From: Larkinella humicola
Lineage (GTDB): Bacteria; Bacteroidota; Bacteroidia; Cytophagales; Spirosomataceae
Assembly: GCF_008727875.1 (NCBI RefSeq)
Contig: NZ_VTWS01000004.1
Location: forward strand, 310,001 to 374,000
Length of the DNA stretch: 64,000 bases
Direction of reading: 5' to 3'
Every line of letters starts with the position of its first letter. Position 1 is the first letter of the stretch. Shown piece after piece: positions 4,815 to 27,366 of the stretch. Both the position numbers and the translations under genes were made by a program. The notes below the pieces were generated by a model. That model worked only from the letters and a program-made list of their open reading frames with translations. It did not search any database and was not told the origin of the DNA.

Positions 4815-6446
4815 TCAATCGGGATTTAAAAAAGGATAGCGGTAGTTTTTAGGAGCATCGAAGGTTTCCTTGATGGTTCGGGCCGACACCCACCGTAACA
4901 GGTTCAGCTCCGACCCGGCTTTGTCGTTTGTTCCCGATCCCCGTGCGCCCCCGAACGGTTGTTGACCCACCACCGCGCCGGTCGGCTTGTCGTTGATATA
5001 AAAGTTGCCCGCAGCATTCCGCAAGCGACTGGTTGCCAAGTCAATGGCATACCGGTCGCGGGACAGAATCGATCCGGTGAGTGCGTAGATGGACGTTTTG
5101 TCGATGAGGTCCAGCATGGCTTCATATTCGTCATCTTCGTAGACGTAGACTGTCAAAACCGGGCCAAACAGTTCTTCGCACATCGTCACGTACTGCGGAT
5201 TGTCGACCCGCAAAACCGTCGGTTGAATAAAATAGCCAACGGTTTTGTCATACGATCCGCCAGCCACGATCTCAACGCCCTCGTCGTTTTTAGCCTGATC
5301 GATGTAGCGGGCCAGCTTGTCGAACGAGCGTTCGGAAATCACGGCATTCACAAAATTACCAAAATCTTCGACCGGTCCCATTTTAATGGTACTTAGATCC
5401 TGCACCACTCTGTCCCGAATCGCGGGCCATAACGATGCGGGCAAATACGCCCGGGAAGCTGCCGAGCATTTTTGTCCCTGGTATTCGAACGCACCCCGCA
5501 CCAGAGCGGTGGCAACGGCTTCTACATTGGCGCTAGGGTGCGCCAGAATAAAATCTTTCCCGCCGGTTTCGCCCACAATGCGTGGGTAGCTTTTGTAGGT
5601 AGCGATGGAATTGCCAATGGTTTTCCAGATCGTTTGAAAAACCGCCGTCGAGCCCGTGAAATGAATACCGGCAAAATCCGGATGGCTAAAAATAACGGCT
5701 CCGGCAACGGGACCATCCACGTTGATCAGGTTGATGACACCAGCGGGCAAACCGGCCTCTTTCAGCACGTCCATGATCACCTGAGCCGCATACGCCTGGT
5801 TTTCAGACGGTTTCCAGACCACTACGTTTCCCATCATGGCTGCCGAGGTTGGCAGGTTGCCGGCAATGGCCGTGAAATTAAAGGGCGTTAGCGCAAACAC
5901 GAAGCCTTCCAGGGGACGTTGCTCCAGCCGGTTCCAGACGCCCGGCGAAGAATTGGGCTGGATGTCGTAAATTTTTGCCATGTACGAAACGTTAAACCGC
6001 AGGAAGTCAATTAGCTCACACGCGGAGTCGATTTCGGCCTGGTAGGCATTTTTCGACTGGCCGAGCATGGTGGCTGCATTGATTTTATAGCGATATGGTC
6101 CAGCGACCAGTTCGGCGGCTTTCAGGAAAATAGCCGCGCGTTCTTCCCAGGGCAGGGCTTCCCAGCGGGGTTTGGCCGCAAGGGCGGCTTCGATGGCTTC
6201 CTGAACGTGGCTGGCATCGCCTTCGTGGTAATAGCCCAGAATATGGTGATGGTCGTGGGGGGGGCGAATGGCTCGTTTGGTTTCCGTTCGTACTTCGCGA
6301 TCCCCGATGTAGAGGGGGATGTCCACTTCCTGCGCCCGGGCATTCGCCAGGGCTTCCTGCAAGTTGGCTCGTTCGGGAGTCCCGGGTGCATACGAATAAA
6401 CCGGTTCATTCCGGGGCTCCGGAACACGGAAAAATCCTTTTGACAT
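4815..6446 (-). CDS. pruA: L-glutamate gamma-semialdehyde (P5C) dehydrogenase
   Basis: The 543-residue product is a full-length aldehyde dehydrogenase of the monofunctional P5C dehydrogenase type. It oxidises glutamate semialdehyde to glutamate with NAD+, the second step of proline breakdown in the cytosol. The catalytic cysteine is Cys327 in GQKCSA, and the general base lies in VGETGGKDF. The cofactor segment HFTGSTAVF and the C-terminal QQPFGGARGSGTNDKAG are present. The start MSKGFFRVPEPRNEP agrees with the family. It is divergent from proline dehydrogenase (6592-7830), the enzyme of the first step, across a 145-base shared control region, and it ends in a strong terminator. Confidence 0.97.
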   Translation of the reverse strand: MSKGFFRVPEPRNEPVYSYAPGTPERANLQEALANARAQEVDIPLYIGDREVRTETKRAIRPPHDHHHILGYYHEGDASHVQEAIEAALAAKPRWEALPWEERAAIFLKAAELVAGPYRYKINAATMLGQSKNAYQAEIDSACELIDFLRFNVSYMAKIYDIQPNSSPGVWNRLEQRPLEGFVFALTPFNFTAIAGNLPTSAAMMGNVVVWKPSENQAYAAQVIMDVLKEAGLPAGVINLINVDGPVAGAVIFSHPDFAGIHFTGSTAVFQTIWKTIGNSIATYKSYPRIVGETGGKDFILAHPSANVEAVATALVRGAFEYQGQKCSAASRAYLPASLWPAIRDRVVQDLSTIKMGPVEDFGNFVNAVISERSFDKLARYIDQAKNDEGVEIVAGGSYDKTVGYFIQPTVLRVDNPQYVTMCEELFGPVLTVYVYEDDEYEAMLDLIDKTSIYALTGSILSRDRYAIDLATSRLRNAAGNFYINDKPTGAVVGQQPFGGARGSGTNDKAGSELNLLRWVSARTIKETFDAPKNYRYPFLNPD

Positions 6447-6504
6447 AAACTAGTGGTGATTAAATCAGTCCTTCAAAGGTATGGTACCCCGGTTTTTCCT
6501 TTGC

Positions 6505-6542
6505 ATCCAAAATTGTCCAAATGTCATCCAAAATTGCCAAAA
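6505..6542. promoter_or_regulatory. Two 17-bp direct repeats in the pruA / proline dehydrogenase control region
   Basis: ATCCAAAATTGTCCAAA (6505-6521) and ATCCAAAATTGCCAAAA (6526-6542) are nearly identical and start exactly 21 bases apart, two helical turns. They lie between the divergent starts of the two proline genes, so they are a plausible operator for a regulator bound as a tandem dimer. The regulator is unknown; the AraC gene at 8117 is only one possibility. Confidence 0.45.
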
Positions 6543-6591
6543 CCGCCATACCCGAAATTCCCGCTATACCTTAGGGGACAAAATACAGACG

Positions 6592-7830
6592 ATGAAAAAC
6601 GGAACGAAAATAGACCTGACCAATACCGCCGATGCGTTCGCCTATAAAACCGATCAGCAGTTGCGGAAAGCGCAGGTGATGTTCACCCTGATGAATCAAA
6701 ACTGGCTGGTGCGGCTGGGAGCGGGGCTTACGGCCCTGGCTGTAAAATGGAATCTGCCGGTCAAAGGCCTGATTCGATCCACCATTTTCGAGCAATTTGT
6801 TGGTGGGGAAAGCCTTGATCAAACGACAGATACCATCAAAACGCTGGAGCAATTCAACGTGGAGGCCATTTTGGATTATGGCGCGGAAGGCAAGGAAACC
6901 GAAGCCGACTTCGACCGGACGAAGGAAGAGTTCATTCGGGTCGTTCGGTTTGCCGCTACCCGCCCCAATGTGCCGTTGATGGGCATCAAGATTACGGGCC
7001 TGGCGCGGTTTGCCTTACTGGAAAAGCTGAACACCCTGGTTCGGCTGACCGATCAGACCGTCGAGATCGATACCGGTTCGCTGACGTCTGCCGAAAGGCA
7101 GGAATGGGAGCGGGTGGTCAGCCGAACGGTTGAAATCTGCGAAACGGGCGCTGATCTCAACATTGGAATAGTAATAGATGCTGAAGAATCGTGGATTCAG
7201 GATACGATCGATGCGTTGACGATGCAGGTGATGACGGTTTTCAACCAAAAGGCCGCCGTCGTTTTCAATACCGTCCAGCTATACCGCCACGATCGGCTTG
7301 CGTTTCTGAAACGGAGCTTTGCGCTGGCCCAAAACCGCAAAGCTATTTTGGGTGTCAAAATCGTTCGGGGTGCCTACATGGAGAAAGAGCGAAAACGGGC
7401 GCTGGAGCGCAACGAAACGGTTTTGATCCAGCCTGATAAAGCGGCCAGTGACAGGGACTTCAACGCTGCGATTGATTTCTGTTTGGATCATCTCGACCGG
7501 ATTTCGCTGATTGTAGCCTCGCACAATGAATACAGCGTGCAACACACCGTCGAAAAATTGCTGGACGCTGGCCTGCTGCTCAACCACCCGCACCTCCATT
7601 TCTCCCAGCTTTTCGGCATGAGCGACCACATCACGTTCAACCTCGCCAAAATGGGGTGCAACGTCAGCAAGTATCTACCCTACGGGCCCATTGCCGATGT
7701 CATTCCGTATTTGATGAGACGAGCGCAGGAAAACAGTTCGGTGGCCGGGCAAACCAGCCGGGAATTATTTCTGATCCGGAAAGAAGTAGCCAGAAGGAAA
7801 CGCTACAAGGGTGCTATTCCGAAATTGTAA
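6592..7830 (+). CDS. Proline dehydrogenase (monofunctional)
   Basis: The 412-residue product is an FAD-dependent proline dehydrogenase, oxidising proline to P5C and passing electrons to the quinone pool. Family motifs are clear: DAEESWIQ, QLYRHDRLAFL, KIVRGAYMEKER, QLFGMSDHITF, KYLPYGP and the substrate-binding YLMRRAQENSS near the C-terminus. The frame is open back to 6481, but those extra 37 residues (MVPRFFLCIQNCPNV...) run through the repeat-rich control region and do not resemble the family, so ATG 6592 (MKNGTKIDL) is chosen. It pairs with the divergent pruA to convert proline to glutamate. Confidence 0.95.
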   Translation: MKNGTKIDLTNTADAFAYKTDQQLRKAQVMFTLMNQNWLVRLGAGLTALAVKWNLPVKGLIRSTIFEQFVGGESLDQTTDTIKTLEQFNVEAILDYGAEGKETEADFDRTKEEFIRVVRFAATRPNVPLMGIKITGLARFALLEKLNTLVRLTDQTVEIDTGSLTSAERQEWERVVSRTVEICETGADLNIGIVIDAEESWIQDTIDALTMQVMTVFNQKAAVVFNTVQLYRHDRLAFLKRSFALAQNRKAILGVKIVRGAYMEKERKRALERNETVLIQPDKAASDRDFNAAIDFCLDHLDRISLIVASHNEYSVQHTVEKLLDAGLLLNHPHLHFSQLFGMSDHITFNLAKMGCNVSKYLPYGPIADVIPYLMRRAQENSSVAGQTSRELFLIRKEVARRKRYKGAIPKL

Positions 7831-8116
7831 TCATTCCAAGAGTCGAAACGAAACCGCTACCCGACTGGAAGCCGGTTCTGGTAGAGGGCTTTGATGCCTG
7901 CTTTTTTAACAGGATTAACCATTGTTCAACGAATATTATCCCAAAACTTGCAATACAGATAAAGCAATGATAATATTGGTATATCCTTTACGCAGCAACT
8001 GCCCAATTCACAGAAGGCCCGGTCAATGAATATTGCCGGTCTTCCTGCAATACCTCGCCATCTCTAATTGTATTATTTGTAGATTTAATAGGTATACAAT
8101 TATATGATTTGACTGT

Positions 8117-8992
8117 ATGAAAGTACTACAATTTACTCCGCCTGCCCCCAAAGAGGATTCCGTAATTGTAGACGAGGATTTCCTGACCCATTTTTACAAT
8201 CATTTTCACCGGCATAAACAACTCCAGATCACGCTCATCCTCAAAGGAAAAGGCATCCTGATGGTGGGAAACTACAGCCAGGCTTTCCGGCCCGGCGAAG
8301 TCTACATTCTGGGGCCGAACCAGCCCCACATGTTCAAATCGGAACCGGGGCATTTTACGAATCCCCGGCTTGGAAACGCCCATGCCATCCACATTTTTTT
8401 CGACCTGGAACGGATTCCCAAAGCCTTTCTGGCCCTGCCCGAAATGGAGTCGATCAGCCGGTTTCTCGACCTCATTCAGAATGGCCTGCAACTGCCGGCT
8501 GAACACGCCGAATCCGTTGCCAAAGTCCTGAAATCCCTGGAAGATAAAACCAATCTGGACCGGCTGCTGGCGGTTATTCAGTTGTTCCAATATTTTTCGA
8601 AGGAAGTAAAAGGTTGGAAGTCGCTGCAAACCGGTTTCGCCGACTATTCCTTCTCGGATTCGGACGGCATGCGGATGAATGACGTCTTCCAGTATACGCT
8701 CGATCATTATGCCGAGCCCATCACGCTCGACAAAATTGCCGACATCGCCCACATTACCCCGCACGCGTTCTGTAAATACTTCAAGAAACACACCCGCAAA
8801 ACGTACAACACATTTTTGAACGAAATCCGGATCAACGAAGCCTGCAAGCGAATCATTAACAGCAGCAACGACGGAATTTCCAGCATCGCCTATTCGACCG
8901 GTTTCAACAGTGCCACCAATTTTAACCGGGTTTTCAGAAAAACCACGGGCATGTCTCCCAGCGACTACATTCGGGAATACAAAAGCAAGTAG
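8117..8992 (+). CDS. AraC-family transcriptional regulator
   Basis: The product is 291 residues. The N-terminal half is a cupin-like sensor (HRHKQLQITLILKGKG, then FRPGEVYILGPNQPHMF at about 50-75), and the C-terminal about 100 residues hold two helix-turn-helix motifs (ITLDKIADIAHITPHAFCKYFKK and ISSIAYSTGFNSATNFNRVFRKTTGMSP). This is the usual layout of one-component sugar or metabolite regulators. The 286 bases before it (7831-8116) contain no gene that I can see. It stands alone, between proline dehydrogenase and ricT, so the target is not evident. Confidence 0.92.
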   Translation: MKVLQFTPPAPKEDSVIVDEDFLTHFYNHFHRHKQLQITLILKGKGILMVGNYSQAFRPGEVYILGPNQPHMFKSEPGHFTNPRLGNAHAIHIFFDLERIPKAFLALPEMESISRFLDLIQNGLQLPAEHAESVAKVLKSLEDKTNLDRLLAVIQLFQYFSKEVKGWKSLQTGFADYSFSDSDGMRMNDVFQYTLDHYAEPITLDKIADIAHITPHAFCKYFKKHTRKTYNTFLNEIRINEACKRIINSSNDGISSIAYSTGFNSATNFNRVFRKTTGMSPSDYIREYKSK

Positions 8993-9347
8993 ACGACGGT
9001 TTTGGTCTGATCTCTGACTGTCATGGATGCGATTTTTCCCCGACCTGCCCGGGGTAGTTAGGATCATGCAGCCATTTATGCCTTTTTTTATTAATTTAGG
9101 GTATAATTTTGAGGTGATCGGTTCGTGAACGGCATTAACCGGTTGAGTAGCGTATTCACAGCCGAATTCGGATCTATATAAAATGTGATCCGGATGAAGG
9201 CAAAAAAAGAAGGCGGGGCCGCCCGCACGATCACGAGTTATGAATGAAGAGTTAAGAGTTAAAAATTAAAAGTAAACGGTTCTCTAGTCTACTTTTTACT
9301 TTTCACGCTTAATTTTTCACTATTAGCTCTTAACTATAGATAGAGTT
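8993..9347. other. 355-base intergenic region with AT-rich imperfect palindrome
   Basis: No gene is seen here. The second half (9249-9336) is an imperfect inverted repeat. Its left arm iterates GAGTTAA / AAATTAA at 7-base spacing, and its right arm carries the complementary phrase TTAACTC / TTAATTTT with small insertions, ending 11 bases before the ricT start. It resembles the other long palindromes in this window but is less perfect. Confidence 0.5.
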
Positions 9348-10556
9348 ATGGGATGCAAATCATGTACGACCGGCGGTTGTGGGACCAAAACCGCAACCGG
9401 AGCCGTGGGCGGATGCAAAAATAATGGGGCCTGTGGCACCGGCGGTTGCAATAAAATGAATGTGTTCGACTGGTTGAGCAACATGGAGACGCCCTCCACG
9501 CGCCGGTACGATGCAACCGTAGAAGTAAAATTCAAGGGTGGGCGGAAGGAATATTACCGCAACCCGCACCAGATCAATCTGACAACGGGCGACTATGTCG
9601 TCTGTGAAATGCAGACGGGCTATCACATCGGCTGCGTATCACTCCAGGGGGAACTGGTTCGCTTGCAGATGTTGAAGAAAAACATCCCGTTTTCCGACGA
9701 TCTGAAAGTGATTCACCGCGTGGCGTCGCAGAAAGACCTCGAAAAACACGAGCAGGCCATCGCTCGCGACCTGACGACGATGTACCGCACCCGCGAAGTG
9801 GTGAAGGAACTCAAGCTGAATATGAAACTGTCCGACGTTGAATACCAGTCGGATAACACGAAGGCGACGTTCTATTATTCGTCCGACGAGCGTGTCGATT
9901 TCAGGGAACTGATCAAGATTCTGGCGGCCGAATTCAAAATCCGGGTCGAAATGCGGCAGATCAGCCTGCGGCAGGAAGCCGGGCGGCTAGGCGGGATTGG
10001 CTCCTGCGGCCGCGAACTGTGCTGCTCCACCTGGCTGACCGATTTCAAAAACATCACGACCTCGGCAGCCCGGTATCAGAATTTGTCATTGAATCCCAGT
10101 AAGTTATCGGGCCAGTGCGGCCGTTTGAAGTGCTGCCTGAACTACGAACTCGAAACCTACGTGGATGCGTTGCGCGATATTCCGCAGGTGGAAAAACCGC
10201 TCGAAACCCAGAAAGGCCGGGCGTCGCTCCAGAAAACCGACATTTTCCGGCGGATCATGTGGTTTGGCTACAGCACTGAAAGCACCTGGTATCCGCTGCC
10301 CATCGCGCGTGTCATGGAGATTCAGGAGTTGAACAAAAAGGGCATTATTCCCGAATCGTTCGACCTGCTGGAACCGATGGCCGAGCGGAAAGAAACCGCC
10401 AAAGGGTTGAACTCCCTCAACAGCGATCTGGAAAAGCTGGACAAAAAATTCAGCGACCGCAGCGATCGGAAGAAGAAACGGAAGAAGAAAAAACCGTCAG
10501 CCGGTGGTGGTGAGCCGACGGCTTCGAACGGCCGCCCGGAGAACGGAAAAGCCTAA
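9348..10556 (+). CDS. ricT: RicT/YaaT-like PSP1-domain protein
   Basis: The product is 402 residues. It starts with a Cys/Gly-rich segment (six Cys in the first 34 residues, such as MGCKSCTTGGCG) that is typical of Bacteroidota members. Then comes the PSP1 domain with RELCCSTWL and GQCGRLKCCLNYELETY, whose cysteines are conserved in RicT. In Bacillus, RicT is part of an iron-sulfur complex that acts on RNA processing through RNase Y; whether that role holds here is inference. The C-terminus is a Lys-rich disordered tail (RKKKRKKKKPSA). A terminator begins at its stop codon. Confidence 0.88.
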   Translation: MGCKSCTTGGCGTKTATGAVGGCKNNGACGTGGCNKMNVFDWLSNMETPSTRRYDATVEVKFKGGRKEYYRNPHQINLTTGDYVVCEMQTGYHIGCVSLQGELVRLQMLKKNIPFSDDLKVIHRVASQKDLEKHEQAIARDLTTMYRTREVVKELKLNMKLSDVEYQSDNTKATFYYSSDERVDFRELIKILAAEFKIRVEMRQISLRQEAGRLGGIGSCGRELCCSTWLTDFKNITTSAARYQNLSLNPSKLSGQCGRLKCCLNYELETYVDALRDIPQVEKPLETQKGRASLQKTDIFRRIMWFGYSTESTWYPLPIARVMEIQELNKKGIIPESFDLLEPMAERKETAKGLNSLNSDLEKLDKKFSDRSDRKKKRKKKKPSAGGGEPTASNGRPENGKA

Positions 10557-19794: not shown

Positions 19795-19840
19795 AAACTA
19801 CGAAAATAGTTTGCAAGCTACGCAAACCGTTCTATATTCG
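19795..19840 (+). promoter_or_regulatory. blaI operon promoter with overlapping operator dyads
   Basis: TTTG (19810-19813) and TATATTCG (19833-19840), 19 bases apart, are a strong match to the Bacteroidota -33/-7 promoter. Two dyads overlap it: AAACTA-N6-TAGTTT (19795-19812) and GTTTGC-N7-GCAAAC (19809-19827). Both cover the -33 element, the place where a BlaI dimer would block transcription. Autoregulation is inferred. Confidence 0.6.
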
Positions 19841-19918: not shown

Positions 19919-20281
19919 ATGGAAAAGTTAACTGCCAAAGAAGAAGAGATCATGCAGGTCTTGTGGAAAGTCGAACAGTCTTTTGTAAAAGACATGCTGG
20001 CCTATTTCACCGATCCGCCCCTGCATTACAACACCGTTTCGACCATTATCCGGAATCTGGAAGAAAAAGGATATGTCGGCCATCAGGCGTATGGCAACAC
20101 CCACGAATACTACCCGATTATCAGCAAGGAAGACTACCAGAACCGCTTTGTGCTGAAGAAAGTCGTGTCGGATTATTTCGATGATTCCTACAAAAACCTG
20201 GTGAGCTACTTTGCCAAAAAGGATAAAATTTCGGTAGACGAATTGAAAGAAATCATCACGATGATCGAGAAGGGGCAGTAG
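19919..20281 (+). CDS. BlaI/MecI/CopY-family repressor
   Basis: The 120-residue product has the family winged helix at about 1-75 (LTAKEEEIMQVLW, HYNTVSTIIRNLEEKGYV, EYYPIISKEDY), then a helical dimerisation tail. In this family the repressor is inactivated when the M56 partner cleaves it in the tail. The stop is followed after two bases by the M56 gene, so the two are an operon. The signal need not be a beta-lactam; in Bacteroidota such pairs occur widely without beta-lactamase genes, and none is present here. Confidence 0.94.
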   Translation: MEKLTAKEEEIMQVLWKVEQSFVKDMLAYFTDPPLHYNTVSTIIRNLEEKGYVGHQAYGNTHEYYPIISKEDYQNRFVLKKVVSDYFDDSYKNLVSYFAKKDKISVDELKEIITMIEKGQ

Positions 20282-20283
20282 CC

Positions 20284-21993
20284 ATGAGCCTGTTGATTTA
20301 CCTCCTGCAAGCGGGTCTGATTCTGGCGGTGTTGACGCTCTGCTACCGGCTGTTGCTCCGCCGGGCCACCTGGTTTGGCCTGAACCGGTATTTGCTCGCG
20401 CTGAACGTGGCGCTGGCGTTGGTGCTGCCGCTGGTCGAGTTGCCCGACTTTCGGCCTGCGCCCGTCCGGAATCTGGTGCAGCAAACCGTTCCGAACCTGC
20501 GGGTTCTGGACTGGTCGCGGCTGAAACCGGCCCAACCCGCTCCCCAATTTCAAAAACCGCCCGCTCAGGTGCCGAATGTCGTCCCGGAAATCCAGCCGGA
20601 AGAATCGACTTTTAGCGGGCAGAAACTGGCGTTGTGGGCGTATCTGGCAGGAGTAATCTTTTTGGGCGGGCGACTGCTGGTGCAACTTTTGTCGCTGGCG
20701 CGGCTGATTGCGCGCTCGGAGCGTTCGTGGGAGGATGATGTCTGGCTGGTGGTCAACGCGGAGGTCGATGCTCCTTTTTCCTTTTTTCGTTGGGTCATTC
20801 TGAATCCGGAACTGTATGAACAGGACGAATTCGACCAGATTCTGCTGCACGAACGGGTGCATTGCCGGCAGTGGCACAGCCTGGATATGCTGCTGGCCGA
20901 GTTGCTGCGGGTCATCTTCTGGTTCAATCCGTTTGCCTGGTGGCACCAGCGGCTGGTGCAGGAAAACCTGGAATACCTGGTCGACCGGGAAGTGCTGGAT
21001 GAAGGCATCGAGAAGAAAAAATACCAGTATTACCTGCTGAAAGCCAGCCTTTCGGGCGAAACGCCGGTTCCCGTCCGACCGGCGACCAATTCGTTCAATC
21101 AGCCGCAGCTCAAAAGCCGGATTTCGATGATGAACCGGCCCCGGTCGAACCGGGGATGGCAAACCTACCTGCTTTTTAGCGTTAGTATTATCCTCTCCTG
21201 TTCGGCCTTTACCACGCCAAAAACCGTTTCCCGGTACGTGGTCGACAACCGGTTTGGTGTGTTCGGATTGATTACGGCGGTTACCTCGGTGCAGGATCTG
21301 GACGTGATGCAGGCGGTTTTTGCGGAACGGGGCATCATGATGCGTTACCAGGCCGACGTCAATCGTTCCGGCCAGATCGATCACATTTCGGTGGAAGTGA
21401 AAAATGGGAAACAGGTCGTTGCCCGGACGCTCAACCAAATACCGCCCTTTGTGATCACGGCCATTCAACCCGACCCGTCGAAGCCGTTTGTGGTGCAAAC
21501 CACCCGGCGGGTGATGCAGTTGCCCGATACCTTGTTTTCGATTTGGGAACACGAAAAACCGGTGGTGGTGCTCAACGGCCGGGTGCTGAACCTGCGGCCG
21601 GGTCAGCCGTTTGGTTTTGGTTCCGTGTCCGACTACAAACGCACCGTGCTGACGGCGCAGGAAGCCATGAAACGGTTCGGCAAAACCGGGCGCTACGGGG
21701 CCACGATGATCGACGGAAAAATTCTGGATGCGGTTTTTTCGGCCAATCCGGAGGTGATGGCGATGGGCCGCCAGCTTTTGTACAGGAAAACACTCTCACC
21801 GGAACAACTCACCCACTTTACCTTTCTGATCGACGGCAAGCGGGGTTCATACCAGGCGTTTCGGGAACTGGCTGCCGACGACAAGATTTCGGTAGCGGTT
21901 TTTGACAAAGGATCGGCGGGAATGGTCAAGCCGATGTTCACGACCAAAGGTCTTGTGGTGGTTACAACCAAGCGCCAGTTGCTGGCGGAATAA
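20284..21993 (+). CDS. BlaR1-like M56 membrane metalloprotease sensor
   Basis: The product is 569 residues. Helices at about 1-20 and 36-54, one at 115-135, then the cytosolic M56 protease with the zinc motif HERVH (189-193) and WFNPFAWWHQRLVQENLEYLVD supplying the third ligand. A loop with LKSRISMMN (276-284) leads to a fourth helix (about 292-310), and then an outer domain of about 260 residues. There is no penicillin-binding domain, so the signal is not a beta-lactam recognised in the BlaR1 way. The protein should cleave the BlaI partner on sensing. Confidence 0.93.
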   Translation: MSLLIYLLQAGLILAVLTLCYRLLLRRATWFGLNRYLLALNVALALVLPLVELPDFRPAPVRNLVQQTVPNLRVLDWSRLKPAQPAPQFQKPPAQVPNVVPEIQPEESTFSGQKLALWAYLAGVIFLGGRLLVQLLSLARLIARSERSWEDDVWLVVNAEVDAPFSFFRWVILNPELYEQDEFDQILLHERVHCRQWHSLDMLLAELLRVIFWFNPFAWWHQRLVQENLEYLVDREVLDEGIEKKKYQYYLLKASLSGETPVPVRPATNSFNQPQLKSRISMMNRPRSNRGWQTYLLFSVSIILSCSAFTTPKTVSRYVVDNRFGVFGLITAVTSVQDLDVMQAVFAERGIMMRYQADVNRSGQIDHISVEVKNGKQVVARTLNQIPPFVITAIQPDPSKPFVVQTTRRVMQLPDTLFSIWEHEKPVVVLNGRVLNLRPGQPFGFGSVSDYKRTVLTAQEAMKRFGKTGRYGATMIDGKILDAVFSANPEVMAMGRQLLYRKTLSPEQLTHFTFLIDGKRGSYQAFRELAADDKISVAVFDKGSAGMVKPMFTTKGLVVVTTKRQLLAE

Positions 21994-22014
21994 TCGGTTT
22001 TTCTGAACCCGCGT

Positions 22015-22752
22015 ATGAAAACGAATGGTATTTTTCGGCAGCACCCGGAGCAGTTCAGCTTCGTCAACCAGTTCGGTCCCCGGTTTTTGAAAAACCGCAT
22101 TCAAATGATGAATCAGGCATCCCAATCCCGGTGGTCGTGGCTGGTCTATCTGGTGTTGTTTACGGTTACCGGACTGGTGACGACGATGGCTGCGGTGGAA
22201 AAGCCGAAAAAACCGTCATCGGCTTTGGTAAAGAAGAAGCCGGTAGTGATCGCGAAGCCAAAACCCGTTTTTTCTGCGGTTGTTGAGCAGGCTGATTCGC
22301 CCATAGAATCCGACTTGAAAATCGTGCCGAAACCGGTGGAAGAACTGGGCGAAAAATCCGTGGCGATTCCCGATTCGGCGCAGGTTGCTAATGAAATACC
22401 GGTAGTGAATACGGAAAAACAAAGCCGGTATGTTGTCCGGGAAGGGAAGTTGCTGTACTGGGTAATTACGCCCAAAATGTCGTTCAAAGACCTTGCGGAA
22501 TTGAAACAAACGATAGAAGAACAATCCCGGTTTACCTTTGATTTTACACACGTCAAATTTGATCCGTTTCAGGTCTATATCAATGCCATTGGCGTAAAAG
22601 TTCATAAACAGAATGGTAGTTCCGGTTCAACGTCGAATGGGGATGAGACTGGCGAACCGATCAAGTCGATTGGCGGCTATCTAGCCGAGAGCGGTTCGCT
22701 GGGCATGGGCATGGCCGGTTCTGGAATGCCGGATGTTTGGCCCAGGTCGTGA
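22015..22752 (+). CDS. M56-like C-terminal membrane module without protease (first copy, part A)
   Basis: The product is 245 residues. After a short start comes FVNQFGPRFLKNRIQMMNQ (residues to 34), close to LKSRISMMN of the neighbouring M56 protein, then one helix (about 41-60) and an outer segment. This contains ITPKMSFKDLAELKQTIEEQ, similar to the DLDVMQAVFAERG region of the M56 outer domain. The four helices and the HERVH protease part are absent. It begins 21 bases after the M56 stop and is probably in the same operon. The frame ends at 22752 while the next gene (TTG start 22737) continues in another frame, so A and B may be one gene split by a frameshift. Confidence 0.7.
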   Translation: MKTNGIFRQHPEQFSFVNQFGPRFLKNRIQMMNQASQSRWSWLVYLVLFTVTGLVTTMAAVEKPKKPSSALVKKKPVVIAKPKPVFSAVVEQADSPIESDLKIVPKPVEELGEKSVAIPDSAQVANEIPVVNTEKQSRYVVREGKLLYWVITPKMSFKDLAELKQTIEEQSRFTFDFTHVKFDPFQVYINAIGVKVHKQNGSSGSTSNGDETGEPIKSIGGYLAESGSLGMGMAGSGMPDVWPRS

Positions 22753-23108
22753 AAGAAGATGAAGCGTCCGTTGCGGGCCTGGTGACCGAAAGCCGAATGG
22801 CTTATTTGATCCAGAAAAATCAGAAATTTATGGCGGGCAGCAAGTCGACAGTAAAAGGGCAGTGGCTGCGCGATAACCCTGGCCGCCGGAATGAGGGGCT
22901 GGGCGTTTTTATCAATGCAAATGGCCAGCTTCAGTTATATCACCCGGAAAATGTTTCGTTGTTCATCGATGGACAGGCGGTGAGTGCCGACCAGGTAGCG
23001 ATGTTTGATCCGAAGCAGCTTCATACGGTCATTATCAACGATGTTCGGGATGAATCCGCCGGACCGGGCCGGAAAAAGCGGTATGTCCAGCTTTTCTTCA
23101 GCCAATAG
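22737..23108 (+). CDS. Continuation of the M56-like module (first copy, part B)
   Basis: The 123-residue frame has only a TTG start at 22737 and is open upstream to 22647, so it overlaps part A by more than 100 bases in another frame. It carries GLGVFINANGQLQLYHPENVSLFIDGQAVSADQV, a version of the hINGxxV module also found twice in the protein at 26386. It lacks its own signal or helix. A single base insertion or loss in 22647-22752 would join it to part A, giving a membrane protein of about 360 residues. Whether this is a true disruption, a sequence error or programmed shifting cannot be told here. Confidence 0.55.
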   Translation: MAQVVKEDEASVAGLVTESRMAYLIQKNQKFMAGSKSTVKGQWLRDNPGRRNEGLGVFINANGQLQLYHPENVSLFIDGQAVSADQVAMFDPKQLHTVIINDVRDESAGPGRKKRYVQLFFSQ

Positions 23109-23115
23109 TGTTTGA

Positions 23116-23200
23116 TGGGAACACGGATTTAACGGATCAAAAAACTGATTTTTATTTTAATCGGTGTAAATCCGTTCCATCCGTTAAATCCGTGTTCCCA
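23116..23200. repeat. Long palindrome after the M56-like gene
   Basis: Arms of 22 bp are perfect (23116-23137 and 23179-23200; left arm begins TGGGAACACGGATTTAACGG), and a further inner match surrounds an A/T loop. The arm iterates CGGATT / AACGGAT at about 9 bases. It begins 8 bases after the stop at 23108 and ends 34 bases before the M16 gene. Confidence 0.85.
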
Positions 23201-23234
23201 TTCTCTATAAAACGTAACTTTACTTCCCCTGAAA

Positions 23235-26180
23235 ATGAGACAATTTCTGTTATCGCTGAGCCTGTTGCTGGTAATCGTGCCGTCAATAATGGGCCAGAAA
23301 ACCGGCGTGGCTACCGAATGGAAAACCGCCATCAGCAACGGCTATACGTATCGCTACGTGACCAACGACCCGATGCAAACCCGGTTTTATACCCTCAAAA
23401 ACCAACTGACGGTTATCCTCAGTGTCAATAAAAAAGAACCGCGCATCTTCTCATTCATGCCGACGCGGGCCGGTTCCAACACCGATCCGCGAAACAATAC
23501 CGGGCTGGCGCATTACCTCGAACACATGCTGTTCAAAGGCACCGACCGCTACGGTAGTCTGGATTGGGCGAAGGAAAAACCGCTGCTCGACCAGATCGAT
23601 GCGCTCTATGAACGCTACAACCAAACGACGGACACGGTTCAACGGAAGGCCATTTACCGGGAAATTGACCAGAAATCGGGTGAGGCTGCGAAGTTTGCCA
23701 TTGCCAACGAGTATGATAAAATGATTGCCAGCATGGGGGGGCAGAATTCCAATGCGTTCACCAGTTATGAAGTCACCTGCTACCTCGAAGACATTCCCGC
23801 CAACGCCATCGATCGTTACCTGACGTTGCAGGCTGAACGGTTTCGTAATCCGGTTCTGCGCATTTTCCACACCGAACTGGAAGCGGTGTACGAAGAAAAA
23901 AACCGGAGTCTCGACAACGATCCCTGGAAAGTGGAAGAAACCCTGATGGCGGCCTTGTTTCCGGTTCATAACTACGGCCAGCAAACCACCATCGGAACCG
24001 TCGAACACCTCAAAAATCCGTCGCTGCTCGAAATCCGGAAGTATTTCAACAACTACTACGTACCCAACAACATGGCGATCATCATGGCGGGGGATCTGAA
24101 CCCGGATGAGGTCATCAAAAAAATTGACGAGAAATTCAGCTACTGGCAACCGAAAGACGTAAAACTCTACAATCCGGCCCCCGAAGCCCCGTTGACCCGG
24201 ATTCAAACCCGGGAAGTGTTTGGCCCCACGCCCGACAACGTCCGGATCGGCTACCGCCTGCCGGGAGTGCTCGACGTGCGATCATCGTTGCTGGCGACGC
24301 TGGCCGATGAGGTGATGTCGAACTCGGCAGCTGGTCTGATTGACCTCAACCTCAACAAACAGCAAAAGATTCTGGGTGGTGGCTCGACCATCGAAAAACT
24401 GAAGGATTATTCCATTTGGACGATGTCGGGCCGACCCAAACAGGGGCAGACGCTCGAAGAAGTGAAAGATCTGCTGATCGGGCAGGTGGAGAAACTGAAG
24501 CGCGGGGAGTTCGATGAGAAAATCCTGCGGGCCATCATTAACAATTACAAACTGAACGCCATTCGTGGCCTGGAAAACAACTACAGCCGGGTCGCTCCGA
24601 TGCTGGATGCGTTCGTCAATGACAAAGGCGAAAGTTGGGTCGACTACACGCGTCGCCTGGACGAGATGAGCAAGATCACGAAGAAAGACGTGGTGGCTTT
24701 TGCCAATCAGTGGTTTAAAGACAATTACGTGGTGGTTTACAAACGGAAAGGCGAGGACAAGAGCATTCAGAAAGTGGAAAAACCGGCCATTACGCCCGTT
24801 GCGACCAATACCGACAAGCAATCGCCGTTTCTGGAAACCGTCAACGACCTGCCGATGGCCCCGATCAAACCGGTGTGGCTCGATTACAAGAAAGACGTGA
24901 AACGCGGCAAAGCCGGAATGGCGGACGTGCTGTATGCGGCCAATGTAGAAAACGAGATTTTCCGACTGGGCTACCGGCTAAAAATAGGGACCTACCACAG
25001 CAAACTTCTGGGCCTGGCAACGCAATACCTGGCTTTCCTGAGTACACCGAATCTGAGTGCCGAGCAGGTGAGTACCGAGTTCTACAGCCTGGCCTGTAGC
25101 TACTCCATTCAGCCCGGCAATGAGTATACGACCATCCGGTTGAGTGGCTTGCAGGAAAATTTCGAACCGGCAGTGAACCTGCTCGAAACGTTGCTGAGGA
25201 CCTGTAAACCGGATGAAAAAGCGTTGGAAGAACTCAAAGGACGGGTGTTAAAACAACGCTCCGACGCCAAATTGAGCAAAGAGACGATCATGCAGGGATT
25301 GATGCAATACGCGCAGTACGGTCCCCAAAATCCGTTCAACAACCAGTTGACCAACGACGAACTGCAAAAGGTGACGGCTGCGGAGTTGGTCGCTTTTCTG
25401 CATAATCTGGTCAATCTGCCGCATCAGATCATTTATTACGGTCCGAAACCGCTGGCGGTTTTTGAAAAGCAGATCGTGAGCCTGCACAAACTGCCTGCGA
25501 CGTTTGCCGCCGTTCCCACGAAGCGGGCTTTCAAGCAGGTTGCGCAGAATGAAAACCAGGTTTTGTTTGCGGATTACGACATGGTGCAGTCCGAAATCTC
25601 GTGGGTGCGCAACACCCGGGCCTATGATCCGGCTCAAACCCCGGTTGTCGAGTTTTTCAACAACTATTTCGGGGGCGGCATGGCTTCGGTGGTGTTCCAG
25701 ACGCTCCGCGAATCGAAAGCACTGGCCTATTCGACCTATGCCTATTACGACACACCTGCCAAAAAAGACGAGCAGTATACTTTGATCGGTTACATCGGCA
25801 GTCAGGCTGACAAACTGCCCGAAGCCGTCGCCGGGATGAATGAGTTGCTGAATGCCCTGCCCGAATCGCCGGTGGCCCTGGATGCGGCCCGGAAAGGGAT
25901 GAAAAAAGGCTACGAAACCGAGCGGGTTTTGCAGGACGCCGTGATTTACAGCTACCTGGCCGCCGAAGAAAAAGGCCTGGACTACGACGAACGCCGGAAA
26001 ATTTACGACGCCCTCGACCAGTTGAGCTATACCGACCTGAAAAAGTTCAGTGACGAGCACCTGGCCAACAAACCGTATACGTATTGCATTGTAGCCTCGG
26101 AAAAACGGGTGAACGCGGATCAGTTGAGCCAATATGGTAACGTAAAAAAGGTGTCGCTGGAGGAGATTTTCGGGTATTAA
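23235..26180 (+). CDS. Exported M16-family (pitrilysin-like) metallopeptidase
   Basis: The 981-residue product has a signal peptide (MRQFLLSLSLLLVIVPSIMGQ) and two M16 halves. The first holds the inverted zinc motif HYLEH at residues 93-97 and the downstream Glu-containing ELEAVYEEKNRS; the second half (from about 540) is degenerate and lacks it, as in the family. It should act in the periplasm on peptides. It lies between the two M56-like module genes on the same strand, set off on both sides by palindromes, and may or may not be in their operon. Confidence 0.93.
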   Translation: MRQFLLSLSLLLVIVPSIMGQKTGVATEWKTAISNGYTYRYVTNDPMQTRFYTLKNQLTVILSVNKKEPRIFSFMPTRAGSNTDPRNNTGLAHYLEHMLFKGTDRYGSLDWAKEKPLLDQIDALYERYNQTTDTVQRKAIYREIDQKSGEAAKFAIANEYDKMIASMGGQNSNAFTSYEVTCYLEDIPANAIDRYLTLQAERFRNPVLRIFHTELEAVYEEKNRSLDNDPWKVEETLMAALFPVHNYGQQTTIGTVEHLKNPSLLEIRKYFNNYYVPNNMAIIMAGDLNPDEVIKKIDEKFSYWQPKDVKLYNPAPEAPLTRIQTREVFGPTPDNVRIGYRLPGVLDVRSSLLATLADEVMSNSAAGLIDLNLNKQQKILGGGSTIEKLKDYSIWTMSGRPKQGQTLEEVKDLLIGQVEKLKRGEFDEKILRAIINNYKLNAIRGLENNYSRVAPMLDAFVNDKGESWVDYTRRLDEMSKITKKDVVAFANQWFKDNYVVVYKRKGEDKSIQKVEKPAITPVATNTDKQSPFLETVNDLPMAPIKPVWLDYKKDVKRGKAGMADVLYAANVENEIFRLGYRLKIGTYHSKLLGLATQYLAFLSTPNLSAEQVSTEFYSLACSYSIQPGNEYTTIRLSGLQENFEPAVNLLETLLRTCKPDEKALEELKGRVLKQRSDAKLSKETIMQGLMQYAQYGPQNPFNNQLTNDELQKVTAAELVAFLHNLVNLPHQIIYYGPKPLAVFEKQIVSLHKLPATFAAVPTKRAFKQVAQNENQVLFADYDMVQSEISWVRNTRAYDPAQTPVVEFFNNYFGGGMASVVFQTLRESKALAYSTYAYYDTPAKKDEQYTLIGYIGSQADKLPEAVAGMNELLNALPESPVALDAARKGMKKGYETERVLQDAVIYSYLAAEEKGLDYDERRKIYDALDQLSYTDLKKFSDEHLANKPYTYCIVASEKRVNADQLSQYGNVKKVSLEEIFGY

Positions 26181-26202
26181 ACCCCGCGTTGTTCATCAAC
26201 CG

Positions 26203-26277
26203 GGGGCTACAAAATGAATCATCCCTCCGGATTGTTGAATTTAATAATCCCGGAGGGATGATTCATTTTGTAGCCCC
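26203..26277. repeat. Long palindrome after the M16 gene
   Basis: Perfect 28-bp arms (26203-26230 and 26250-26277; left arm begins GGGGCTACAAAATGAATCAT) around a 19-base AT-rich loop. It starts 22 bases after the M16 stop. It could terminate transcription, although no T tract follows. Confidence 0.88.
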
Positions 26278-26385
26278 GATTCAAACCAGGGGAAGGTTAA
26301 AGAACGGTTTTTTTTGAAATCGAATTAGGGAATTCAGGGCTATTTTGACTACCTTCATCAAGGTGAGTATCTTCCTGGTAAAGAG

Positions 26386-27366
26386 ATGATCATGAAGCAC
26401 AAACGCCCATGCCGCTACCGGTTCACGAACCAATTTGAATACGCCGGATTGAAAAACCGCATTCAGATGATGAACCAGGCCCGTTCTGATGAAGCCTGGT
26501 GGCGGTATATGCTCCTTTGGGTCGCAACGGTGCTGGTGGTGATGGCGTGCCAGGGCGAACAGACCCCCCGCGAAGTGAACGTGACCCATCGTCCTGATTT
26601 TCCGTTGATCAACCCGACCCGCATTCTGGTGACCAAACTGGAAGACGGTCCGCTCTGGGGACGGTCACTGACGTACTACCAACGGAAAAGTAAGCTCAAA
26701 ACCGGAACCTTTTTTCAATTCAATGCCCCGTTTATTATCAACCTGAAAGACAACGTTCTGACGCTGGCGGAAAACTACAAAACCCAAACGCTGGTGTACA
26801 TCAACGGCAAACCGGTGTCGGCGGCTCTGCTGGCGAAGCTGAAAATCGATTACATCGAGGAGCTTTTCGTTCTGCACCAGTTTGACGGCATCGACAATCC
26901 GGATCCCCATCCGTATCGTATATTGATTCAAATCAGTAAGCAATCCATTCCGATGAGGCCGGAGCGCCAGCAGTTGGTCGCGATGCTGAAGGCTGCGGGG
27001 ATGTCGGATCATCCGCTGGGCGTTACGCACACGTATACGATGAATAAACTGCTGGAAGCCACCTTTTTCGGGTATAAAGACGTATTCGTGAAACGGACGA
27101 AAAACCAGCACCTGAAAATTCAGGAGGAGTTTATCAGCGACATCGACGTCTTCATCAACGGCATTCCGGTTGATCCGAAAGAGGTGGAAACCGTGCATGT
27201 CCGCGAAGTAGACCGGCTTTACACCCACGAACGGCCCTTTACGAACTGGATGCGGACTGAAAAACGCCAAAGCCGGTATGCGCTTCTTATCAAAACCGCG
27301 CCCAAACGGGCCAAACGCGACAGCAGTTATTACGTCTTCAGTCCGTTTTATTCCGGTGACTTTTAA
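26386..27366 (+). CDS. M56-like C-terminal membrane module without protease (second copy)
   Basis: The product is 326 residues. FTNQFEYAGLKNRIQMMNQ (to residue 31) matches the same junction as in the first copy and in M56 (LKSRISMMN), followed by one helix (about 41-56). VVMAC (Cys55) could also act as a lipobox, so it may be a lipoprotein. The outer part has two related segments: YINGKPVSAALLAKLKIDYI (about 138-157) and FINGIPVDPKEVETVHVREV (about 256-275), each followed by a beta-strand end (RILIQIS and YALLIKT). The protease half of M56 is missing. The SGNH gene starts within its last codons. Confidence 0.72.
   Translation: MIMKHKRPCRYRFTNQFEYAGLKNRIQMMNQARSDEAWWRYMLLWVATVLVVMACQGEQTPREVNVTHRPDFPLINPTRILVTKLEDGPLWGRSLTYYQRKSKLKTGTFFQFNAPFIINLKDNVLTLAENYKTQTLVYINGKPVSAALLAKLKIDYIEELFVLHQFDGIDNPDPHPYRILIQISKQSIPMRPERQQLVAMLKAAGMSDHPLGVTHTYTMNKLLEATFFGYKDVFVKRTKNQHLKIQEEFISDIDVFINGIPVDPKEVETVHVREVDRLYTHERPFTNWMRTEKRQSRYALLIKTAPKRAKRDSSYYVFSPFYSGDF

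Follow-up and report, generated by a model that had tools for sequence, protein, structure and literature searches.

The question raised by this locus was why an operon for a BlaR1-like receptor carries two further genes that resemble only one part of that receptor. The locus lies in a 64,000-nucleotide stretch of Larkinella humicola DNA (RefSeq assembly GCF_008727875.1, contig NZ_VTWS01000004.1, positions 310,001 to 374,000), referred to here as the window, whose first letter is position 1. The gene order is blaI, M56, A, M16, B and then a GDSL hydrolase, and all window features given with coordinates are on the forward strand. The original prediction, made from the letters alone, placed LKSRISMM at residue 276 of the M56 protein and LKNRIQMMNQ in the genes starting at 22015 (A) and 26386 (B), and these motifs and coordinates were all correct. 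It also described A and B as keeping one helix and an outer part and lacking the protease. Pfam agreed, as Peptidase_M56 (PF05569) was matched by the M56 gene (E 1.7e-18) and not by A or B. A and B are probably detached, exchangeable sensor subunits of the BlaI-M56 receptor which would dock on the protease in trans. The idea of detached sensors, already put forward in the original prediction, is preferred because of the conservation of the modules, the purifying selection on them, their operon position and the species in which a sole module accompanies a protease lacking its own. The sequences also hold the segment shared by the proteins and repeated changes between attached and detached forms. 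The detached M56 sensor modules are a real set, and a more extensive one than first noted. They span several genera, have a common docking segment and swap with the fused sensor.

The shared segment and the two modules

M56 (20284..21993) encodes a BlaR1-like membrane protease of 569 amino acids (aa) with its own outer domain. Its HEXXH zinc site is at residues 189-193 (20848..20862), and H189, E190, H193, E230 and D234 were invariant across 32 aligned M56 proteins, including three split proteases described below. The best fold match of the M56 model in the PDB was Staphylococcus aureus BlaR1 (8exq, E 1.8e-6), the model itself being weak with a predicted local distance difference test (pLDDT) score of 67.8. 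Using phmmer, M56 aligned to S. aureus BlaR1 (8exp) with an E of 0.003 and SFN fell on Ser283-Phe284. The predicted self-cleavage site of M56 is S270-F271, and it lies with the LKSRISMM helix at 21085..21132. Passages of PMC9834060 report that Ser283-Phe284 is the self-cleavage bond of BlaR1, that its loop occupies the active site and that this loop must vacate the site before BlaI is cleaved. They also report that helix a9, with Arg294 in an interchain bridge to Asp246, and helix a10 are domain-swapped in the dimer. For Bacillus licheniformis BlaR1 the cut has been assigned to a K(E/R)-R motif (a passage of PMC3356374). A cut at such a motif would also fall within the shared segment.

The same elements were found in both modules. 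In A, a self-cleavage-like FSFVNQF segment and the LKNRIQMMN helix were placed by alignment at 22054..22113, and LKNRIQMMNQ starts at residue 25 with 24 residues before it. In B, RFTNQF and the LKNRIQMMN helix lie at 26419..26475 with F17 and R25 conserved in B rows, and LKNRIQMMNQ starts at residue 22 with 21 residues before it. Across 18 chosen modules F17, L22, R25, M28 and Y41 did not vary. All B rows, both detached (23/23) and fused (11/11), had the P1' Phe and the downstream Arg. The match to the shared segment starts at residue 1-52 of the modules, the start being taken as the first possible start codon. We infer from the LKxR[IL] motif that the helix Arg is the counterpart of Arg294 in BlaR1. 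The BlaR1/MecR1 order of a Phe, an Arg helix and a last membrane helix was seen in the sequences of M56, A and B, with cleavage predicted. A gluzincin HEXXH protease beside a BlaI-type repressor was found for M56 with blaI and not for A or B alone. Because of the Phe, the Arg and the alignment to BlaR1 the detached module corresponds, as judged from sequence, to the half of BlaR1 after the loop, comprising the loop end, a9, the last membrane helix and the sensor.

Profiles of A and B were joined by HHalign over 57 columns (probability 98.9%, E 2.4e-17), so the shared segment is not a chance likeness. The match spanned only the juxtamembrane segment (J) and the membrane helix. The expected similarity of A and B to the C-terminal part of M56 therefore holds for this segment, which was detectable by sequence, and the outer domains are only weakly similar. 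Runella B gave a probability of 54% over 79 columns against the M56 outer domain. A and B had been called copies of the neighbouring M56. Recent tandem copying is ruled out, since identity among the outer domains in the window does not exceed 27% and other genera have B as the outer domain of fused M56 proteins. The A lineage of Larkinella is separate from the Larkinella M56 outer domain in a tree of A-type outer domains.

Gene B (26386..27366) encodes 326 aa and was found in 8/9 genus genomes. The AlphaFold2 model has a single predicted membrane helix at residues 38-55 (26497..26550), its membrane location being assigned from hydrophobicity. Two tandem repeats follow (residues 77-183 and 192-304; 26614..27297) with a predicted plug-like fold (pLDDT 80.5). 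Foldseek searches with the model gave TonB-dependent receptors as the best matches (E 0.0096, probability 1.00), all partial and none below 0.001. Pfam Plug was not matched in B and was matched once in a module of genome G033 (E 1.2e-6). By our own reading of the model the repeats would be assigned to the plug domains of TonB-dependent receptors. No match to B was found in a plasmid search.

The C-terminal residues of B (RDSSYYVFSPFYSGDF; 27316-27366) were almost invariant in fused and detached forms alike, with Phe as the final residue. This tail was the pattern used in the scan of named genomes, so its conservation is partly built in and only 10 rows from a whole-protein search are free of the bias. 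The B label in trees and comparisons was also assigned by the tail, and a tail-less B would count as A-type. In many B modules a Cys closes the membrane helix in a lipobox-like setting (MACQ, FACRH; 26548-26550 in the window). Lipoprotein processing at this Cys is possible.

Gene A (22015..22752) encodes 245 aa in the window and has a frameshift near its 3' end. The remainder of 123 aa lies in a different frame (22737..23108) and aligns with the C-terminal region of A from relatives. A was detected in 8/9 genus genomes and is a single intact reading frame of 316-406 aa in all seven relatives that have it.

The ratio of nonsynonymous to synonymous substitution rates (dN/dS) within the genus was 0.07-0.21 for M56, 0.17-0.31 for A and 0.12-0.31 for B, with a dS above 1 in some pairs. 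A and B could in principle be functionless, decaying leftovers of gene duplication or fission, as the suggestion of tandem-duplication remnants would have it, given that A is now frameshifted in the window, that some species lack A or B and that at one Spirosoma endophyticum locus (L102) blaI is accompanied by a broken B-like remnant and no protease. Set against these, dN/dS in the genus (0.12-0.31) indicates purifying selection on the modules, the arrangement is repeated in several genera and the Phe and Arg are kept in every detached B row. Decay is a very remote prospect.

Mean identity within detached B rows was 0.58 for the segment, 0.49 for repeat 2, 0.41 for the transmembrane helix and 0.35 for repeat 1, making the segment the best conserved part apart from the C-terminal tail. 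Conservation of the part expected to bind the active site would also suit modules that act as inhibitors or decoys in trans, in which an uncleavable or slowly cleaved loop fills the active site and damps the switch with no sensing. The BlaR1 loop is reported to block access of BlaI (a passage of PMC9834060). However, the outer domains are conserved too and the genes are under purifying selection, which a pure inhibitor would not need, and loci with split proteases show no partner other than the module. Such a role, a decoy having been one suggestion of the original prediction, is unlikely.

Modules in related genomes

The arrangement had been expected beside blaI-M56 in related genomes, and it recurs in the Spirosomataceae. 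A search with B matched 13/59 genomes, including that of the window, and as the match in G003 was only to the shared segment of A, B is present in 12. In three genomes (G010, G012 and G036) it forms part of fused M56 genes of 568-595 aa. Scanning the named genomes turned up 37 B loci. Runella loci have M56 with one to four modules. Spirosoma loci have an M56:B fusion, another outer domain with a detached B, or a protease without outer domain followed by B, and this last form is the one found in Fibrisoma. After removal of duplicates 72 loci were fetched, and 67/71 detached modules in them lay downstream of M56 and shared its strand, each at a locus with blaI. The other four were the B of Larkinella knui and three on short contigs without M56. 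Eleven gaps between operon genes and modules were 4-base overlaps.

Beyond these loci the J profile matched at least 109/121 genomes of the family and 54/247 of a phylum sample, fused and detached forms being pooled. Outside the family, 80 of the 85 matches listed were in frames longer than 420 aa. The five in shorter frames comprised G220 and G278, which are M56 proteins themselves, G353, which is doubtful, and G229 and G276, which were not fetched. No convincing detached module was found outside the family among the matches listed, with G229 and G276 not fetched.

Three proteases stop before the self-cleavage loop. These are M56 proteins of 257 aa in Fibrisoma montanum, 261 aa in Fibrisoma limi and 264 aa in Spirosoma panaciterrae. 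The Phe, the Arg helix and the last membrane helix are all absent from them, and B follows 23-61 bases after each. At such a locus only the separate module could supply the loop, helix and sensor. If these proteases work, they must by their sequences obtain the Phe, the Arg helix and the membrane helix in trans. Other candidates for split receptors were set aside as doubtful. In G353 (L137) a single broken gene may account for both an M56 of 224 aa and a 194-aa piece, and in G061 (L134) the halves are parted by an in-frame TAG followed by TTG. The proteases of Spirosoma spitsbergense (284 aa), L. soli (316 aa) and G033 (295 aa) retain part or all of the segment.

Several loci had unusual arrangements. 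Tandem arrays behind one blaI were seen in the genera of G023 and G031, with five M56 genes (L145) and three (L146). A fused M56:B occurs in a Flavobacterium sp. record (SUN052, L097), where the protease groups with those of G010 (Rudanella) and a Cytophagales metagenome-assembled genome (MAG). This may be a transfer or a mislabelled record. At the S. endophyticum locus (8940-9990), one of the 37 with B, an M56-like start runs into the B-like remnant with stops and frame changes.

Attached and detached sensors

A tree of 53 protease domains was constructed and is unrooted. B requires at least eight changes between attached and detached on this tree (41 rows), or seven without the doubtful L101 and L134. 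Three sister pairs differ in the position of B. These are Spirosoma arboris (detached) with Spirosoma telluris (fused), support 100/100, Spirosoma luteum (fused) with S. spitsbergense (detached), support 100/100, and Spirosoma utsteinense (detached) with G114 (fused), support 100/97. S. panaciterrae, which has only the protease, is sister to Spirosoma sp. 48-14, which has its own outer domain (support 100/99), and both have a detached B. The 22 rows of Spirosoma and Fibrisoma comprise 10 M56:B fusions, eight with another outer domain and a detached B, and four with B and a protease without outer domain. All nine Runella rows have another outer domain and seven have a detached B. These forms could have come about by simple fission of an ancestral M56:B or by change in the other direction, as the tree is unrooted.

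The tree of A-type outer domains (54; 31 attached, 23 detached) has several rows on long branches. It requires at least seven changes, six of them forced by starred branches, or six in total without the doubtful L134. Shuffled labels gave 17.7. The position of the A-type sensor is, on these sequences, thus partly inherited but not fixed.

Outer domains and proteases have also parted company in Runella. The proteases of Runella limosa and Runella defluvii are 94% identical and their outer domains 31%, while those of G090 and Runella aurantiaca are 95% and 29%. The reverse holds for R. limosa and G111, with proteases of 60% identity and outer domains of 92%. In Runella C8_MAG the fused outer domain shares 60-61% identity with detached modules from R. 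limosa and G101, against 34% and 24% with the fused ones of those two genomes. In five of 28 Runella rows the segment was closest to one in its own genome and the outer domain closest to one elsewhere. This was the case for 0/19 Larkinella and 0/4 Spirosoma rows, the filter having skipped one Runella, one Larkinella and six Spirosoma rows, which leaves the Spirosoma test thin. Within Larkinella no exchange was seen by this closest-match test or on the outer-domain tree. General homogenisation of the shared segment was dropped on these counts.

The Runella identities and the five Runella rows would also be expected of silent sensor cassettes, genes kept mainly as a reserve that recombination at the shared segment draws on to give the protease a different fused sensor. 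The counts from Larkinella and, thinly, Spirosoma do not extend this. The modules have their own start codons, 4-base overlaps and low dN/dS, and in some species the detached module is the sole one at the locus, all of which counts against a silent store. We regard cassettes as improbable.

For detached sensor subunits we infer trans docking, competition, BlaI cleavage and signals as follows. A detached module would dock on M56 in trans and replace or compete with the C-terminal half of the protease. By analogy it would consist of the parts exchanged in the S. aureus BlaR1 dimer (the post-loop helix and the last transmembrane helix) together with the sensor and the loop end. Its loop segment would sit in the zinc active site, which its Arg would complete. 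A signal on its outer domain may then shift the loop, so that BlaI is cut and the operon derepressed. With several modules per protease, one BlaI-M56 switch could hear several signals. A more tentative picture, its chances a little short of even, is of one M56 socket with interchangeable sensors, one covalent and the others separate, in which recombination at the loop-helix-membrane segment reshuffles the fused sensor. The receptor would here be split near the BlaR1 self-cut site and the dimer swap turned into a sensor plug-in.

A number of observations weigh against detached subunits that work in trans. The autocleavage shown for BlaR1 is in cis, according to a passage of PMC9834060. The ungapped phmmer alignment places the M56 Arg two residues off Arg294. 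HHalign did not join the M56 outer domain with A (probability 11.8%) or with B (1.6%). Repeat 2 is better conserved than the segment in fused B rows (0.58 against 0.45), so sampling may explain part of the segment's conservation in detached rows. The loci were collected by searching with modules, which biases any rule of no protease without a module. The modules are also dispensable, as is seen from their losses and changes in the genus. In the searches of the nine genus genomes B was not found in G003 and A was not found in G007. A in the window lacks one base that is present in G002 and G006 (frameshift region 22730-22760). In L. knui (G005) the operon and B are some 16 kb apart and the juxtamembrane segment of B has degenerated (VTKPFEYTGSRIRIQRMN; L058, 5815-6795), as if its partner had been lost. 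In the window itself, the M16 gene and two hairpins stand between B and the operon.

Neighbouring genes and known systems

The blaI gene (19919..20281) encodes a repressor of 120 aa (Penicillinase_R, PF03965, E 1.8e-28). An exact operator-like dyad, AAACTA-6-TAGTTT, lies 5' of it (19795..19812) and is a putative operator. The Larkinella, Fibrisoma, Spirosoma and Runella loci inspected had an identical or near-identical dyad 5' of blaI. A genome-wide scan with the operator pattern for a BlaI regulon gave six sites against two with the reversed control pattern. The M16 protease gene (23235..26180) had been made the centre of the arrangement in the original prediction. It does lie between A and B here, but it is at the locus in just 4/9 genus genomes (G000, the window genome, G002, G005 and G006) and was rejected as a component of the system on that account. 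It is a lineage-specific neighbour outside the module array. A perfect hairpin with 23-nucleotide (nt) arms lies between A and M16 (23115..23201), and another with 28-nt arms lies 3' of M16 (26203..26277), the arms being 100% complementary in both. The second may, by its sequence, terminate the M16 transcript ahead of B. The window genome has a second locus with blaI, M56 and a detached module (L119, G000:C14:466000-482000; 5114-8374), and this module has CarboxypepD_reg and TonB_C domains.

Two halves of a receptor as separate proteins, divided near the self-cleavage site, would make sensing, docking and protease activity separable for study. If detached subunits are correct, M56 receptors of the family each serve as a socket for a set of sensors, evolving by exchange, rather than as a single sensor, and hypothetical genes adjoining blaI-M56 gain a role. 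Among the matches listed, split M56 receptors were not found in titles or abstract openings of the openly licensed PMC literature.

Some receptors keep the sensor apart from the enzyme, for example histidine kinases with accessory periplasmic sensors. These are alike in having the sensor on a polypeptide other than the enzyme. They differ in that here the detached part corresponds to the C-terminal half of the enzyme itself, split off close to the self-cleavage site. Other Bacteroidota M56 proteins share the protease and the juxtamembrane segment but have other outer domains, and these are fused, in keeping with the long frames of most matches listed outside the family. The closest likeness is to BlaR1/MecR1 with BlaI/MecI of staphylococci and B. 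licheniformis. Both systems have a BlaI-type repressor adjoining an M56 gluzincin membrane protease, and both have the self-cleavage Phe, the helix with a conserved Arg, the last membrane helix and an outer domain. By Pfam, no penicillin-binding (class D beta-lactamase-like) sensor was found in M56, A or B of the window or in an intact A. No beta-lactam-binding domain was found by Pfam, and the system bears no mark of drug resistance. Unlike BlaR1/MecR1, the system has extra sensors as separate genes, with no protease match in A or B, and some of its proteases have no sensor of their own while the sensors change between positions.

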